Origin: Chitinophaga pinensis
GTDB taxonomy: Bacteria; Bacteroidota; Bacteroidia; Chitinophagales; UBA10324
Direction of reading: 5' to 3'
Assembly (NCBI GenBank): GCA_945903305.1
Contig: CAMDOA010000017.1
Location: 1-44,554, forward strand
DNA length: 44,554 nucleotides
Part shown: positions 8,903 to 42,254 of the stretch, one piece after another
Position numbering within the stretch: the stretch's first letter is position 1
How the letters are laid out: the number at the start of each line of letters is the position of its first letter
Made by a program: the position numbers and the translations under genes
The notes under the pieces: model-generated
What the model saw: the letters and a program-made list of their open reading frames with translations, nothing else
What the model was told of the DNA's origin: nothing
The model's database searches: none

Positions 8903-10684
8903 TTAACCCTTCACCAACTTTTTAACCGAACTGAATTTATCGGAGCGGAGCGCGATGAAGTATATTCCTTTTGGCAATGATTGAAGATTGAAAATTGAAG
9001 ATTGAAAAATTACTTTGTCGCTTATAAGTAATTGCCCGAGTGTATTAGTTATTTCTATCCGACAATTATTACAGGGTTGCGAAAGTGATATGGTTATGTT
9101 TTCGTCCGCAGGATTGGGAGAAATTGTAAATTTTGAATTTTGAATTTTGAATTCGTTTATTGAGGTGAATACTTGTGTGCATGCTGTTGTATCAACGCAA
9201 TTGCCTTCGGTGATGATGGCTGCATACATTCCTGATGTGGATGGAATAAATACATGTTGTGTTGCTCCTGAGATGATTTGTTGTGTGTTGCAATCAAACC
9301 ATTGAATGCTGTTGCCGCTTACTGATAAGGTGTCGTTTGCTTGTGTTATAGTGGTGTTGATTGTTTCTACGGTGAGATTGAGGTTTACTATTGAATCGCA
9401 ACCATTTACTGCATTCAGAGTTGCAGAATAATTTCCTGCGTTTGTTATTGTGGCTCCGTTGAAGATGAATGATTCTCCGGCGCAAATGGTTTCTGAAATA
9501 GTGGTTGGTATAATTGGATTGCAAATAACATTGCTCACTGTATTGGTTACAATGGGTGCATTGAAATCAAAATAAATACTTGCGGTGTTTTCTATGGTGG
9601 TGCCTAATGGAAGATTTGGTAGTGGTTTTATTCTGTAACTCACATAGCCCTTACTTGCTTCTGCATCTGTTGTGCTGTCAACTAAATTGATGTTGACAAA
9701 ATTGAAATGCACTTTACTGCCAAACAACTGCACCATTGGAGTATGAGAATAAGAAAGCAACTGAAATGTGCTTGCATCTAAATCAGCATCGAGTGTATCA
9801 AGTACTTGTATGTGTTGTGCGGGTGCGGTGCCTGTGTTTTGAAAATGGATGGTGTAGGTGAGCCAATCATTAAAAGGAAATTCCAAACTCCCAACCGGAC
9901 TTACTTCTTTTTCATTCGGGTCATAAGAATTGCTGACTGCAAAACAATGCGTGAGTGTGTTGTTTGAAATATTATTATCTCCTGCTGGTGGTGTTACTGT
10001 TACATCAAAACAAATCTGATTTCCGATTTGAGCAGTTGTATCTGTTATAACATTAAATGCAAAATCAGTTGTTGCATTTACCAATGAGAAATCAGCAATG
10101 CTATAAATCAATGTGTCTCCAATTACTGTTGGAGTTAGTGCTCCTGATAATGGAGAAACATAATCTGCAAGCCCATTGATAACCACTTTTACTTCTCCGC
10201 TTATTCCTGTATTGCAACTGACATTGTAAATGCTTTGTGTTATATCTCCTGCAATCACATGAACCGAAGATGTATTTCCGGGAAAGAAATTATTTCCTCT
10301 ATAAACATTCCAAACTCCAATATCAAATCCTGATTTGCAAACCAATCTGAAATCAACATTGTAATCCATTGAATCAATTGCAGTGAGATTACTTGCTGTG
10401 CTATTACTTGAAGGACACAATATATTGAATGGAATGTTTACTGTATCAACTGAAGTTGAATAATTTCCAAGTTGAGTATCGAATGAATAATCTCCTCCCC
10501 AGTTTGCAATTACTTGTTGAATTAGGTTGCCTCCTGAATCATATAATTTTGTCTTAACTAATGGAATTCCAGTGCTATCATTTGTTGTAACGCAACTGCT
10601 GTCGCCATCTAAAAATATTTTGCCCTTTATATTCCATGACAATCCGCAATTGCTTGGATTAAATATTAAATCACAAATTGGCAT
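8903..10684 (-). CDS. T9SS-sorted surface protein with DUF7619 domain, 5'-truncated
   Basis: The 593-residue product has no signal peptide although it is clearly a cell-surface protein. It starts inside a Cna-B/SdrD-like region (WNIKGKIFLDGDSSC, then YDSGGNLIQQ). Next comes a DUF7619 domain at about 251-385 (YDPNEKEVSP, LTYTIHFQNTGTAPAQHIQV, ASIYFDFNAPIVTNT). An Ig-like module with CDSIVNLNLTVE follows, and a Por C-terminal sorting domain begins near residue 520 (SKFTISPNPADENITISL). Ten codons before the first ATG the frame hits a stop inside a CT/GA-rich repeat (10694-10738). The gene has therefore probably lost its N-terminal half and signal peptide and may be a pseudogene. It lies on the same strand as rplA but has no evident functional link to it. 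Confidence 0.8.
   Translation of the reverse strand: MPICDLIFNPSNCGLSWNIKGKIFLDGDSSCVTTNDSTGIPLVKTKLYDSGGNLIQQVIANWGGDYSFDTQLGNYSTSVDTVNIPFNILCPSSNSTASNLTAIDSMDYNVDFRLVCKSGFDIGVWNVYRGNNFFPGNTSSVHVIAGDITQSIYNVSCNTGISGEVKVVINGLADYVSPLSGALTPTVIGDTLIYSIADFSLVNATTDFAFNVITDTTAQIGNQICFDVTVTPPAGDNNISNNTLTHCFAVSNSYDPNEKEVSPVGSLEFPFNDWLTYTIHFQNTGTAPAQHIQVLDTLDADLDASTFQLLSYSHTPMVQLFGSKVHFNFVNINLVDSTTDAEASKGYVSYRIKPLPNLPLGTTIENTASIYFDFNAPIVTNTVSNVICNPIIPTTISETICAGESFIFNGATITNAGNYSATLNAVNGCDSIVNLNLTVETINTTITQANDTLSVSGNSIQWFDCNTQQIISGATQHVFIPSTSGMYAAIITEGNCVDTTACTQVFTSINEFKIQNSKFTISPNPADENITISLSQPCNNCRIEITNTLGQLLISDKVIFQSSIFNLQSLPKGIYFIALRSDKFSSVKKLVKG
8979..9152 (-). repeat. Short A/T-rich quasi-repeats inside the T9SS gene
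   Basis: Two stretches in the 3' part of the surface-protein gene are built from short repeats: GAAGATTGAAAATT-like units at about 8979-9008 and ATTTTGAA units at about 9124-9150. Read as protein they give the linker EFKIQNSKF and the loop QSSIFNLQS around the sorting domain. Such simple repeats are also common between genes in this phylum. Confidence 0.6.
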
Positions 10685-17042: not shown

Positions 17043-17327
17043 TCCGGAAGGAGAGGGGTTAATTATAATTTATTTTAACAAGTTATCTTAGTACTACTAT
17101 TTTCATTAGGGTAAGTAATTACCGTTTGTTTAAAAGAACTACAATTAACTGTTGCCAATTTTAACTTTCATAAATAACCGATTGATCATAATTGCGGCCG
17201 TTAATGATAATCCTCCGGCATTGAGAGTTAGTGAGAATTTAATATTCGAACTGAAAATCATCGAATAAAAAAGCCGGTTCAAATTTCTTTGAACCGGCTT
17301 AATCAAGTTTTCCATTTTGCAAATCGC
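17043..17327. other. Intergenic region with partial CT/GA repeat and terminator
   Basis: The space between hslR and the riboswitch-controlled gene contains a half copy of the interspersed repeat (GGAAGGAGAGGGGTTA, about 17046-17061). About 190 bases of AT-rich DNA with no recognisable gene follow, then the terminator at 17271-17300. Confidence 0.5.
17271..17300 (-). terminator. Terminator of the BtuG-like gene
   Basis: A 13-bp perfect stem (17300-17288 with 17283-17271) closes a 4-base loop. On the minus strand a T-run follows. It stands 28 bases past the stop of the BtuG-like gene and shows that the riboswitch controls a single-gene transcript. Confidence 0.88.
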
Positions 17328-18623
17328 TTAATACTTAACTACCTTTTGAACAAAGTTTTTGTTTTCTGATAATAAAGTAATTAAGTAAGTGCCGGCTGAA
17401 TATTCTGAAATATTCAGATGCTGAACGAAATTTTTTCCATTCACTGTTTTTGTAAATAATATTTTTCCGTCAACGGAAGTTAAAGTAATAGTTGAGTTTT
17501 CATCGGTATTTGTACCTGCAATAGTTAATTGATTGGTTGCCGGATTTGGAAATACGAGCAACTGTGAATTGGTATTAATCAAATTTGTTGCGCTTGCATT
17601 GCGATAATCAAAAGCAAATTTACCTGGAGTAACACCAGCAACAAATGCGTTTAACAAACTACCTGATTCAGTATAAATTAAAACCAGACCATACGATGTG
17701 AAATCAGTTTCAGAAGCATACAATTGCTGATTCAATATATCAGTTTCCATGGCATAAACCGTACGGTTAATAAAAAGTGAATCACTAATGCTTTGCGAGT
17801 TCAAATCAAATCGACCAATAAAATTTTCGTTATAAGTCTGGTAAGCAATTTTTGAATTTATAAATGCGGAACCCTGGCATCCTCCGGCATTATTCAAATT
17901 TGTTGTTACAACATTCGAATTAGTTATATCAACACTGCTGATGGAGGCAAACGAATAATCGCGGTTGTTGACTGTGTAAAGCATATTATTATCAATCAAA
18001 ATATTTTCAGGATTAATACCATCAGCTCCTAAAGAAATTTCTGATAAATAATTTTGTGCTGTTAAATCCACTTTTCCAACAATGCCAACCGCACCTCCCC
18101 AAACAAAGCCATTGTTAATAGCAATGTATGCTATGTTATCCTTTATTACAATTCCGTCGGAGGCATATTGAGGACCATTTAAAGTATCTAATTCATAGTC
18201 GAAACTTAAATCAGATTTATTGTAAACCTGAAAGTATGATTCGTAAGTGGTTAAATATTCACCGCGGGTTAATAATATTTTATTGTTCCATAAAGCAATT
18301 TTCCGGATACCGTTTACAATTATTGTTGAGAGTAACTGGTGTGTGTTCAAATCATATTTTAATAGCGAGTTATCTGCCGCCACATAAATATTTTCATTAT
18401 CGACAACCACATCAGAAGCAAATCGTGCATTTTCTATTGTATCAAAAACCGAATAACTATTTGTTTGCGGAATATAATAGCCAACCGTAACCGGTTTTTC
18501 AATTTGCTGTAAAATGTAATTGTACTTTCCTTCATTTAAAATAATTACCTGATTCAGAATTTGCTGTGCGTTCGACATCATAGAGCTAAGCGCAATGATG
18601 ACAATTAGGATGAATTTTTTCAT
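17328..18623 (-). CDS. BtuG-like (DUF5074-type) beta-propeller with T9SS sorting domain
   Basis: The 431-residue product begins with a signal peptide (MKKFILIVIIALSSMMSNAQ, cleavage after Ala19) and has no lipobox. A seven-blade-type propeller follows. Its first strand QVIILNEGKYN matches the N-terminal signature (VLNEG) of the DUF5074/BtuG family, and later blades read FASDVVVDNENIYVAADNSL and AYIAINNGF. From about residue 355 there is a Por sorting domain (LLVFPNPATNQLTIAG, ending FVQKVVKY). BtuG of Bacteroides is a surface lipoprotein that binds cobalamin beside the transporter BtuB. Here a cobalamin riboswitch stands in front of the gene, which supports a B12-related role. There is no btuB next to it, and the anchor type differs. 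Function is an inference from riboswitch plus fold. Confidence 0.78.
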   Translation of the reverse strand: MKKFILIVIIALSSMMSNAQQILNQVIILNEGKYNYILQQIEKPVTVGYYIPQTNSYSVFDTIENARFASDVVVDNENIYVAADNSLLKYDLNTHQLLSTIIVNGIRKIALWNNKILLTRGEYLTTYESYFQVYNKSDLSFDYELDTLNGPQYASDGIVIKDNIAYIAINNGFVWGGAVGIVGKVDLTAQNYLSEISLGADGINPENILIDNNMLYTVNNRDYSFASISSVDITNSNVVTTNLNNAGGCQGSAFINSKIAYQTYNENFIGRFDLNSQSISDSLFINRTVYAMETDILNQQLYASETDFTSYGLVLIYTESGSLLNAFVAGVTPGKFAFDYRNASATNLINTNSQLLVFPNPATNQLTIAGTNTDENSTITLTSVDGKILFTKTVNGKNFVQHLNISEYSAGTYLITLLSENKNFVQKVVKY

Positions 18624-18781
18624 GATGTTTTTTACTTGGTTTTATGATTTAATTATTTGTTGTGTTCTGTTTGCGGAATAAAGTTGCAACAGTTATCAGC
18701 GAAATAAATTTCAACTGAAAATCTGAGCAGCTCTTCCTCCGAGGGCTTTATGTTGGTGCAAGCACCAATGATCAATTTTGT

Positions 18782-18955
18782 TGTGGCAGGTCTTCTGACT
18801 CATCTGTTTTGCAAACTGCCTTCCCGAATTTAATCAGTGGCTTTTTTTAGTTTGCAATTTCAAGATTCACAGCAGCGGGGACTGTTGAAGATTTACACCT
18901 CATTCCCTTTTCATCCCATTAACCGGGAACCGCAACGGTGCGAATGTAAATACCG
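18782..18955 (-). promoter_or_regulatory. Cobalamin riboswitch
   Basis: The minus strand carries the hallmark blocks of the cobalamin aptamer in order: TTAATGGGATGAAAAGGGAA, GAGGTGTAAATCTTC, CAGTCCCCGCTGCTGTGA, then GCCACTG, CGGGAAGGC and AGTCAGAAGACCTGCC at the 3' end. The B12-box core and the conserved 3' closing strand are both present. About 155 bases of leader separate it from the ATG at 18623. They include a GC-rich foldback at 18753-18768 that may belong to the expression platform. B12 binding should repress the downstream BtuG-like gene. Confidence in the class is high. Confidence 0.95.
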
Positions 18956-19039: not shown

Positions 19040-19810
19040 TTATGATTTCATTGCTTCCTGTTTCATTTCCAAAGCAAGATCAGCGCCCAGATAATTATCA
19101 ATGTAATGATGAATCAAGTACATGACAGGAGTTAAAATAATGGCTGCAATAAATTTATAGGTGTAGTTGAATAAACAAATGGCAAGCACCAGACTCATGC
19201 TCCACCCTTGCCCGATATAAAAAGCAATAAATAAAACAATAAAACTATCGACCAATTGCGAAACAAAAGTGCTGCCTGTTGCCCGGAGCCACATTTTTTT
19301 TTGTCCGGTTTTTCTTTTTATCCAATGAAAAATGGTTACATCTACAATTTGGCTTATCAGAAATGCTGATAATGATCCTAATATAATCCACATGCCTTGT
19401 CCGAAAATGGCGTTGAAAGCTGATGGCATATCCGGAACTCCTTTTTCAGCATTTACATCAATCCAAAAATCAGCAGGAGCCAGTTGCATGGAAAAATAAA
19501 ACATCATAAATGCATATAGAATCAGGCTTACCGCAATGTAAGAAACCCGTTTCACACCTTTTGGTCCAAAATATTCATTGATAATGTCGGTCATAATAAA
19601 TTCTAAAGGCCATAATAAAACCCCACATGTTAGTGTGAACGAAATTTCGGGTTGATTGAATATGGTTGCGTTCAATGGATTTAATCCGAATGTTTTTTCG
19701 AGTGAAAATATTTTCACACCTATGCACTCGGCAATTAATGCGTTGGCAACAAAGAAAGAACCCAGTATTAAAAACACTTTAGTGCCTTTATGTTGAATGG
19801 AAATATGCAT
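19040..19810 (-). CDS. Queuosine precursor transporter (YhhQ/QPTR family)
   Basis: This 256-residue membrane protein has about six hydrophobic helices. The family signatures are GSFFVANALIAECIGVKIF near the N terminus, WPLEFIMTDIINEYFGPKGV (about 67-86) and RATGSTFVSQLVDSFIVLFI (about 177-196). Members import 7-cyano-7-deazaguanine or related bases for tRNA queuosine synthesis. The gene is upstream of the riboswitch on the same strand, but the riboswitch lies after its stop and so does not control it. It is divergent from rnhA. No queuosine biosynthesis gene is adjacent. Confidence 0.92.
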   Translation of the reverse strand: MHISIQHKGTKVFLILGSFFVANALIAECIGVKIFSLEKTFGLNPLNATIFNQPEISFTLTCGVLLWPLEFIMTDIINEYFGPKGVKRVSYIAVSLILYAFMMFYFSMQLAPADFWIDVNAEKGVPDMPSAFNAIFGQGMWIILGSLSAFLISQIVDVTIFHWIKRKTGQKKMWLRATGSTFVSQLVDSFIVLFIAFYIGQGWSMSLVLAICLFNYTYKFIAAIILTPVMYLIHHYIDNYLGADLALEMKQEAMKS

Positions 19811-36970: not shown

Positions 36971-38722
36971 TTACTTGAATACTTTGAACTTACTGGTCAA
37001 AATATTTTCTTTGTTTTTTATCCGGATGAGATAAGTTCCATTCATAAAACCTGAAGTATTTAAAAATATTTTTTTTGTATGATCAGGTAAATTATTACTG
37101 AACATTTTTTTTCCGGTAATAGAATAAACTTCAATAGTACTGTTAACGACTGACTGATTGAGGTCAATAGTAAGATTATTGCTTGTCGGATTCGGATAAA
37201 CCGAAAGTGAATTATCAGTAGAAACATCCTGTACAAAGGTTGTATCAATTATTTCAGTGTCTTCAACCAATATCAAATATCCCAACCTGCCAATGAATAT
37301 ATCATCAACTCCTGATGAAAGAAAATATAAACTATCAGTAGCGCCTGTATCAATGACACAATAGAGTGTATAAAATCCTGCTGCATATACATGACCTGAA
37401 TCATCTAATGTTATTCCATTCAAACCATTTGCAAATGAACTCAGACTTCCGCGTGCCCAATGAATGGTGCCGGTATCAGTATAAGCGGCAACAAAAAAAT
37501 TCTTTACCGGTTCTAATAAAATTGAATCAATTCCGGCACCAAAAACAGGAGCAGTAGTGCCTGTATATTTTCCGGTTAAATAAATTAATGAATCGTCGTG
37601 AATGATTTGTGTTGTGGTTATGCCACCTGTTTGACTGTACCCGCAATTTTTTGCAAACAATAAATTTCCATTCGACTGATAGCCGCAAATAAAATTTTCT
37701 GCCACTGTAATTCCGGATTGAAGCACTATGCTTCCTGAATCATTTCCAAAGAAAGAGCTATCAGCATAAATGCCTGTAAGCAAAATTTCACTTGCTTCGT
37801 TTAAATCCATTGCTTGGGCAAAATCATTTTTTATTCCACCAATGTGTTGTCGCCACAATCGCTGTAAACCTGTTGAATCAGAATGAAATTTCAGAATATA
37901 AATATTGGTAAAGCTTCCGGCGTTACTAAGTTGGGCAGTGTCAGGTAAAATTCCAATTACAGGTTTTCCATAATAATTTCCTGACAAATAAAAATTTTGA
38001 TTCTGATCCAATGAAACTCCGGTGGTTATCATTTGCGAAGTGTTTTTTGCTACATCAGTTAAAAACTGAATCTGCCCATTTGTATTGTAACAAGCAGCCC
38101 AAAGATGCCAGGTAAAATCATTAGTCAAGGTATCTGAGAGTGAATCAGCAGTTGCAATTAACTGCGAAAACCGAGAACCCTGAATAATTATATTTTCATT
38201 GTTGATTCCGGAAGAAATTTTTTCATCTTCAATAGCACCTATGTGACCGGCCCAAATAAAATTTGCGTTGGCATCAAACTTCGAAATAAAAATATCGCGG
38301 CTTCCATAAGAAGTAAAAGTATTGGTTGTATTGAAACTTACATTTCCGGCATCAATAAAATCCCCAAAATAACCGGTGATTAAAATATTTCCCGAGCTGT
38401 CTTCAAAAATTTTTTGTGGTTCAATGCCAAAATCTGCTTCAGCCACTTTTTTAGCCCAGATTAAATTTCCATTGCAATTATATTTTGCTATAAACATTCC
38501 GAAATCAACAGCACCAAGTGATGTGCTTTCAAAGGATGCAGAATCTTCAAAAAAACCTGTGACCAATAAATTTCCATCGGCAGTATAAATTATTGCATTC
38601 GCACGGTCGCTGTTATTTCCGCCTGCGGTTGATGCCCAGTTCCAGTAGGGTGCCTGCGCATTTGATTGAAAGGAAAGAAAGCACATTAAAAAAATAACAC
38701 TGCTTAACTGTATTGTTTTCAT
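36971..38722 (-). CDS. SBBP-type beta-propeller protein with T9SS sorting domain
   Basis: The 583-residue secreted protein has a signal peptide (LMCFLSFQSNAQ, cleavage near residue 22). Propeller units of the SBBP type follow: WNWASTAGGNNSDRANAIIY, DGNLLVTGFFEDSASF, DSSGNILITGYFGDFID and SGHVYAAGFYTLYC. The sorting domain starts near residue 505 (LSVYPNPTSNNLTIDLNQ) and ends TSKFKVFK. It lies 91 bases upstream of the DUF4907 gene on the same strand and may share its transcript or have an own one. The role is unknown; propellers of this type occur on cell surfaces of many Bacteroidota. Confidence 0.82.
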   Translation of the reverse strand: MKTIQLSSVIFLMCFLSFQSNAQAPYWNWASTAGGNNSDRANAIIYTADGNLLVTGFFEDSASFESTSLGAVDFGMFIAKYNCNGNLIWAKKVAEADFGIEPQKIFEDSSGNILITGYFGDFIDAGNVSFNTTNTFTSYGSRDIFISKFDANANFIWAGHIGAIEDEKISSGINNENIIIQGSRFSQLIATADSLSDTLTNDFTWHLWAACYNTNGQIQFLTDVAKNTSQMITTGVSLDQNQNFYLSGNYYGKPVIGILPDTAQLSNAGSFTNIYILKFHSDSTGLQRLWRQHIGGIKNDFAQAMDLNEASEILLTGIYADSSFFGNDSGSIVLQSGITVAENFICGYQSNGNLLFAKNCGYSQTGGITTTQIIHDDSLIYLTGKYTGTTAPVFGAGIDSILLEPVKNFFVAAYTDTGTIHWARGSLSSFANGLNGITLDDSGHVYAAGFYTLYCVIDTGATDSLYFLSSGVDDIFIGRLGYLILVEDTEIIDTTFVQDVSTDNSLSVYPNPTSNNLTIDLNQSVVNSTIEVYSITGKKMFSNNLPDHTKKIFLNTSGFMNGTYLIRIKNKENILTSKFKVFK

Positions 38723-41243: not shown

Positions 41244-42254
41244 ATGAAAACAAAAATTACACTTCTCATTACATTTTTATTCAGCATCAATATTTCAAAT
41301 GCACAACTCACCATTCAAACCGGATTGAACGATACAGCCATGACCACCTTGATCGAAGGATTAGGAGTTAGCATCACCAACCTTTCAATCAATTGTAATG
41401 ATTCGGCTTTTGGTTCATTCAATGGCACATCGGAACTTTCTATTACTTCAGGAATTATTTTAAGTACCGGATTTGCAAATACTATTGCCGATTCCAATTA
41501 TATGACCGCAACTTCCGGCATGTTGAGTATGACCGGCGATTCTGATTTAACAGCCCTGTGCGGTGCCACAACTTACGATGCATGCGTGTTGGAGTTTGAT
41601 TGCATACCAACAGGCGACACACTGGAATTTAATTTTGCTTTTGGCTCTGAGGAGTATCCTGAATATGTGGGCAGTCCGTTCAACGACATTTTTGCCATCT
41701 GGCTTTCAGGTGCAGGAATAACCGGTGCAGTAAATGTCGCTGCCATTCCAGGCGGTACTCCGGTTGCCATTAATAATGTAAATGCCACTTCTAATGCTGC
41801 TTACTTTTATGATAATGAAAATCCTGCAGGGCAGTATATTTCATTAGATGGATTTACAGTAAACCTCACTGTGCTTTCAGTAGTGGTACCCAACTCACCG
41901 TATCATTTTAAAATTGCGATTGCTGATGCAAGTGATGGAGTACTCGACAGTGGTGTGTTACTCGAGGCATTCAGTTTCCGTAGTAATGGAGGCAGCAGTT
42001 CTAATGTCATTTGCACAGGTGATAAACCTTCGATTAAAATTTTTCCGAATCCAGCTGCTGACCATTTCACTATTTCTTCACCCGAACCGCTCAGTCAGGT
42101 TCGCATAATGAATTTAACCGGCCAATTGGTAAAAGAATTTTCTACCTCTGAAAAATTTTTTCAGTTATTGACAGAAAATTTTTCTTCCGGAATTTATTTG
42201 GTTGAAGCGGTTTCACCTGATCTTGTTTTGATGAGTAAACTGATAGTTCATTAA
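41244..42254 (+). CDS. Choice-of-anchor L domain protein with T9SS sorting domain
   Basis: This 336-residue protein has a signal peptide (FLFSINISNAQ, cleavage near residue 20). A choice-of-anchor L domain follows, recognisable by ITSGIILSTGFA, then CVLEFDCIPTGDTLEFNFAF, GSEEYPEYVGSPFNDIFAIW (about residue 134 on) and PYHFKIAIADASDGVLDSGV. The sorting domain starts near residue 264 (IKIFPNPAADHFTISSP) and ends SKLIVH. A TAnnTTTG match at 41215-41222 may be the promoter; its -33 element is unclear. A terminator follows. Such domains occur in surface adhesins and matrix proteins; the specific role is unknown. Confidence 0.88.
   Translation: MKTKITLLITFLFSINISNAQLTIQTGLNDTAMTTLIEGLGVSITNLSINCNDSAFGSFNGTSELSITSGIILSTGFANTIADSNYMTATSGMLSMTGDSDLTALCGATTYDACVLEFDCIPTGDTLEFNFAFGSEEYPEYVGSPFNDIFAIWLSGAGITGAVNVAAIPGGTPVAINNVNATSNAAYFYDNENPAGQYISLDGFTVNLTVLSVVVPNSPYHFKIAIADASDGVLDSGVLLEAFSFRSNGGSSSNVICTGDKPSIKIFPNPAADHFTISSPEPLSQVRIMNLTGQLVKEFSTSEKFFQLLTENFSSGIYLVEAVSPDLVLMSKLIVH

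Follow-up and report, generated by a model that had tools for sequence, protein, structure and literature searches.

In gut Bacteroides, BtuG is known to act as a lid on BtuB and to be held by a lipid anchor, and its homologues have been described as lipoproteins that are almost always linked to btuB (PMC6143338). How, then, should a cobalamin-controlled propeller gene be read that stands alone in the genome of a freshwater member of the Bacteroidota and encodes a protein with a secretion tail and no lipid anchor? Such a gene lies in the window, the whole 44,554-nt stretch of DNA analysed here. An earlier note on this DNA had interpreted its product as a B12-binding propeller placed on the cell surface, or released, by another export route.

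Architecture and control of the propeller gene

The features of the locus, all on the minus strand, are the following:

17328..18623 (-): CDS of a predicted T9SS-type BtuG-like propeller protein, 431 aa (ORF translation, domain profiles, fold)
18567..18623 (-): signal peptide, about residues 1-19, no lipobox cysteine (read by inspection of the translation; helix 2-15 in the model)
17598..18566 (-): predicted propeller domain, residues 20-342 (Z 34.7 to BtuG1; hhalign against BtuG2 profile, probability 99.8)
17334..17555 (-): type A T9SS C-terminal sorting domain, residues 357-430 (PF18962, TIGR04183)
18768..18949 (-): cobalamin riboswitch aptamer RF00174 (cmscan, 111.7 bits, E 2.5e-27)
18624..18767 (-): leader, from aptamer to start codon (seven leaders aligned)
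17271..17300 (-): intrinsic terminator directly 3' of the gene (13-pair stem, 4-nt loop, T-rich tail)

The Rfam scan revealed a full-length RF00174 match (model 1-189) of 111.7 bits (cut-off 31.5), the aptamer thus scoring above the gathering score over its full length, and no other RNA family exceeded its own cut-off in the window. This match, at 18949-18768 (-), is the only one in the whole 3.1 Mb draft genome. The riboswitch claimed by the earlier note is therefore present 5' of the gene, with its aptamer ending at 18949 rather than at 18955, and the gene's own terminator claimed alongside it is present as a 13-bp hairpin and T-run at 17300-17271 (-), just past the stop codon. Alignment of seven leaders uncovered a conserved GCTTTCGGAGGAAAG-like hairpin segment across the genus, and the leader at 18624-18767 has a fold z of only -0.96; a search 3' of the aptamer found no clear terminator or SD-sequestering expression platform.

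Directly 5' of the riboswitch lies a Vut_1 gene (19040-19810, minus strand), a queuosine precursor transporter by TIGR00697, with a similar gene at the matching place in G001, G004 and the distant G072. Its membership in the riboswitch unit was rejected, since it is located upstream of the riboswitch and is missing at several relatives' loci.

The 431-aa protein begins with MKKFILIVIIALSSMMSNAQQILNQVIILNEG, a signal peptide by inspection, and contains no cysteine in its first 40 residues, hence no lipobox. Its C terminus matches PF18962 (residues 357-429, E 8e-13) and TIGR04183 (E 6e-11). Both export features named in the earlier note, a signal peptide without lipobox and a C-terminal Por sorting domain, accordingly held up, and together they are those of type A T9SS cargo; in place of the lipobox cysteine and LES of BtuG surface lipoproteins, the protein carries a T9SS C-terminal domain (CTD). 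The middle part received no Pfam assignment above cut-off, and an olfactomedin match below it (E 4e-4) was set aside as generic propeller similarity. The window's genome contains 23 sorting-domain matches including the propeller gene, with CTD-only coverage among the others listed; judged from its own CTD and the 22 other matches, the propeller protein would be expected to use the T9SS. Three more T9SS sorting-domain proteins are encoded within the window, at 8903-10684 (-), 36971-38722 (-) and 41244-42254 (+), one of them with a DUF7619.

Relationship to BtuG and other cofactor-binding surface proteins

A single-sequence search of the PDB with the window protein placed BtuG entries at the top, with weak scores (E 0.003-0.04), so profiles and structure were used instead. 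Searched as a profile, alignment A2, comprising 16 relatives of the window propeller, recovered BtuG entries from the PDB at E 3e-10. Profile-profile comparison by hhalign with four lipoprotein BtuGs of the same order, which themselves match PDB BtuG at E about 1e-67, gave a probability of 99.1 (E 1.5e-18, 295 columns), rising to 99.8 (E 4.5e-27) once BtuG2 and BtuG3 were added to the lipoprotein profile. The AlphaFold2 model of the window protein (mean pLDDT 86.8, pTM 0.84) returned BtuG structures as all 16 of its best Foldseek matches, and a second structure aligner ranked BtuG1 first (Z 34.7, rmsd 2.4, 306 aligned), ahead of an archaeal YVTN S-layer propeller (Z 30.9) and of nitrous oxide reductase, the next unrelated family (Z 28.7). 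One distant relative, encoded in a btuFCD operon, gave a poorer model (pLDDT 76.8), for which BtuG again came first but in a tie at Z 29.0 with the YVTN propeller. These profile matches confirm homology of the window propeller to BtuG, and the model predicts its middle part to be a seven-bladed beta-propeller of BtuG type. The earlier note had called the protein a BtuG-like propeller and had named absence of fold similarity as what would overturn that reading; the structural comparison found the similarity.

Five aromatic residues are named in the BtuG2 pocket: W194, Y239, W272, Y316 and Y335 (PMC10404256). Residues W175, Y290 and F308 of the window protein align with W194, Y316 and Y335, positions that are aromatic in 10/10 sequences of the window's clade; neither Y239 nor W272 has an aromatic counterpart. 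With three of the five matched, the pocket is at most suggestive of corrinoid binding.

Like BtuG1/2/3, the surface lipoproteins of Bacteroides (PMC6143338, PMC10404256), the window protein comprises a predicted seven-bladed propeller of the same length with an NEG motif opening blade 1, is preceded by a cobalamin riboswitch, and belongs to a Bacteroidota host. Unlike them, it lacks a lipobox and LES, carries a T9SS tail, shares only 16-19% identity with BtuG, sits on a separate tree branch, and has no adjacent btuB, although btuB does share a locus with other propellers of the T9SS type. The classical lipoprotein BtuGs of the same order (L038, L040, L046, L167, L169, L171) have a homologous fold but are lipid anchored. 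Because the lipid anchor and the btuB linkage, two BtuG features that were tested, are both absent, we file the protein as a T9SS-delivered BtuG-like variant and not as BtuG. The defining properties of BtuG also include femtomolar cobalamin binding and a complex with BtuB. No description of a T9SS-delivered BtuG was found in open-licence papers, one of which mentions T9SS and BtuG separately.

DUF4465/BtuJ B12-binding proteins (PMC12751083, PMC13398666) are likewise accessory B12 catchers in riboswitch loci, built on a jelly roll rather than a propeller. At one locus (L069:1810-2784 onward), the genes after a cobalamin riboswitch encode first a DUF4465 (BtuJ-type) protein bearing a T9SS tail and next a TonB-dependent receptor, pointing to T9SS delivery of another B12-binding fold too. 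Contig C1 of the window's genome carries an operon-like run at ~98575-103158 (L107:8576-13159) that joins a T9SS-tailed HmuY-domain protein, a TonB-dependent receptor and an HmuY lipoprotein. The tailed HmuY protein is apparently a second cofactor binder delivered by the T9SS; it resembles the propeller as a cofactor-binding surface protein with a T9SS CTD, and differs in that its putative ligand is haem, not B12, and that no cobalamin riboswitch is present there.

Distribution, operon partners and the search for BtuB

A propeller-only profile was run on 150 genomes of the order, 38 of which contain the family at at least 125 bits; scores then drop across a gap to at most 63 bits, the range of the order's lipoprotein BtuGs. 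RF00174 occurs on the same strand in 31 of these 38 genomes, lying 136-320 nt upstream of the propeller in 30 and heading an operon that runs through btuB in one more. Since a genome usually has one such riboswitch, this pairing is far beyond chance. The riboswitch is missing at the propeller in G001, G076, G094, G126 and G143; in G002 and G020, contig ends truncate the locus. The congener G001 (L048, 8405-8698) has the orthologous gene and neighbours yet no riboswitch, and a permissive cmscan of the gap found no degenerate copy upstream of the gene. All intact propeller copies inspected lack a lipobox, and the T9SS tail profile matches all of them with two exceptions, G126 and G143, in which the C-termini score below it.

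Within the window's genus, and among the relatives closest to it, the propeller gene is solitary. Elsewhere the operons behind the riboswitch read propeller-btuF-btuC-btuD (L042-L045, L159, L160), propeller-FGE-like-small protein-btuB (L038-L040, L167, L171), and btuB-propeller (L046). Gene clusters joining the propeller with all or some of the FGE-like protein, the small protein, BtuB and lipoprotein BtuG are found at L038-L040, L046, L165-L167 and L171. These btuFCD and btuB partners tie the propeller family to B12 uptake independently of its own sequence similarity. Furthermore, a lipoprotein BtuG and a T9SS propeller share one gene cluster at six loci (L038, L040, L046, L167, L169, L171), so the two types can coexist. 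The FGE-like protein itself (L038:6305-7798 and orthologues at L039, L040, L046, L165-L167, L170 and L171) is a conserved, secreted, sulfatase-modifying-factor-like protein of ~500 aa, mostly joined by the small protein of ~120-140 aa, often T9SS-tailed, in many propeller/btuB riboswitch operons.

BtuB was searched for with three profiles built from riboswitch-linked BtuBs. The profile to which the same family's BtuBs (G006, G008, G011, G013) score 464-677 bits detected no canonical BtuB in the window's genome (G000), its congeners, or G010, G030, G043, G055 and G072, where scores reached at most 96 bits; another BtuB profile scored the same genomes far below true BtuBs, and a combined profile, run on 42 genomes, did not exceed 69 bits in G000 or 106 in the window's clade. 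The gene's position away from any btuB, as the earlier note had put it, thus extends from the window to the draft genome, in which none of the three profiles detected a BtuB-class receptor; the note's suggested search for other B12 riboswitches with btuB yielded no further RF00174 and no recognisable btuB.

The maximum-likelihood tree, with group labels assigned by the analyst before it was drawn, split off the lipoprotein BtuGs (support 100/100) and separated the T9SS propellers of mostly BtuB-bearing genomes (98/97) from those of BtuB-less genomes, the window included (93/93). The BtuB-bearing label is imperfect, as G047, G076 and G146 have fragmented contigs without an intact BtuB match. 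In all, BtuB was not recognised in 16 genomes, and their propellers form one clade.

In the window's genome, a MetH fragment lying at the edge of a contig and two B12-binding-domain matches indicate a need for B12, and in the congeners G001 and G003 matches span all of MetH; CbiC was not found above cut-off in G000 or its kin. Given B12-dependent enzymes and no CbiC, the organism should depend on imported corrinoids, and its genome would be predicted to import B12. As to the inner membrane, the genomes of the window's genus yielded no FecCD-type (BtuC-type) permease, and the search for BtuFCD elsewhere in G000 gave no FecCD match. The same holds for the btuB-bearing kin G006, G011 and G013, so this absence is not specific to the BtuB-less clade.

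Proposed function and its alternatives

Collectively, we favour, with a probability of about 0.72, the reading that the propeller is a B12-repressed, T9SS-delivered surface B12 catcher working without a canonical BtuB. The aptamer lies upstream of one gene on the mRNA; judging from its riboswitch class, high intracellular cobalamin would shut this gene off, so that the protein would be made when B12 is scarce. Its motifs predict passage through the inner membrane with the help of the signal peptide and through the outer membrane via the T9SS, which would remove the C-terminal domain and leave the propeller attached to the surface or released. Homology, predicted fold and operon partners suggest that the propeller binds corrinoids as BtuG does, and the bound B12 may then be handed to an outer-membrane transporter other than canonical BtuB, encoded elsewhere and outside riboswitch control. 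The earlier note's interpretation is supported, because the predicted fold matches BtuG, the pairing with the riboswitch is seen in 31 genomes across the order, and relatives sit with btuFCD or btuB. Counterpoints are the 16-19% identity to BtuG, the two pocket aromatics (Y239, W272) left unmatched, the functional divergence of propellers, and the congener G001, which keeps the gene without the riboswitch. More tentatively, and at somewhat less than even odds, one clade of T9SS-delivered BtuG-like propellers may work without BtuB; the riboswitch, which in other genomes controls the outer-membrane B12 transporter, would there control only the secreted catcher (plus BtuFCD in one family), and B12 would enter via a different transporter.

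The apparent lack of BtuB could instead be a detection failure, the propeller being a BtuG with a different anchor whose partner is a true but divergent BtuB with its gene lying elsewhere and lacking a riboswitch. The assemblies are drafts, and the window's genome has several TonB-dependent receptors, the best of which, on contig C1, scores 103 bits to TIGR01779 (TonB-B12), near the 111 bits that one of the order's riboswitch-linked receptors attains. This receptor was rejected as a hidden BtuB: both flanking genes carry HmuY domains, making it probably a haem receptor, and its scores with the profiles of riboswitch-linked BtuBs are only 45-87 bits, where the BtuBs found in the same family reach 464-677. 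As the absence of BtuB is also repeated across 16 genomes whose propellers form one clade, we regard a missed partner as unlikely.

A different ligand, or an enzymatic or adhesive role in which B12 gates expression only, as in a B12-saving or alternative pathway, seems still more improbable. Beta-propellers are versatile, only three of the five named pocket aromatics are matched, and cobalamin riboswitches also control B12-independent isozymes; against this, BtuG structures outrank every other propeller, and btuB and btuFCD occur in relatives' operons. The fate of the secreted protein bears on a further possibility, that it is released as a diffusible, haemophore-like B12 trap rather than forming an attached lid. 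The missing lipid anchor and the release of some T9SS cargo speak for such a trap, while type A CTD proteins are commonly surface-attached in Porphyromonas, and we consider release doubtful.

For a surface B12 catcher of this kind, the implications reach beyond one gene. A T9SS-delivered BtuG-like protein, widespread in environmental Bacteroidota, would mean a second secretion route for surface B12 capture, and it offers a functional guess for proteins otherwise recognisable only by their T9SS sorting domains. The BtuB-less clade raises the question of which path B12 takes into the periplasm in bacteria whose only gene under B12 control encodes the catcher.
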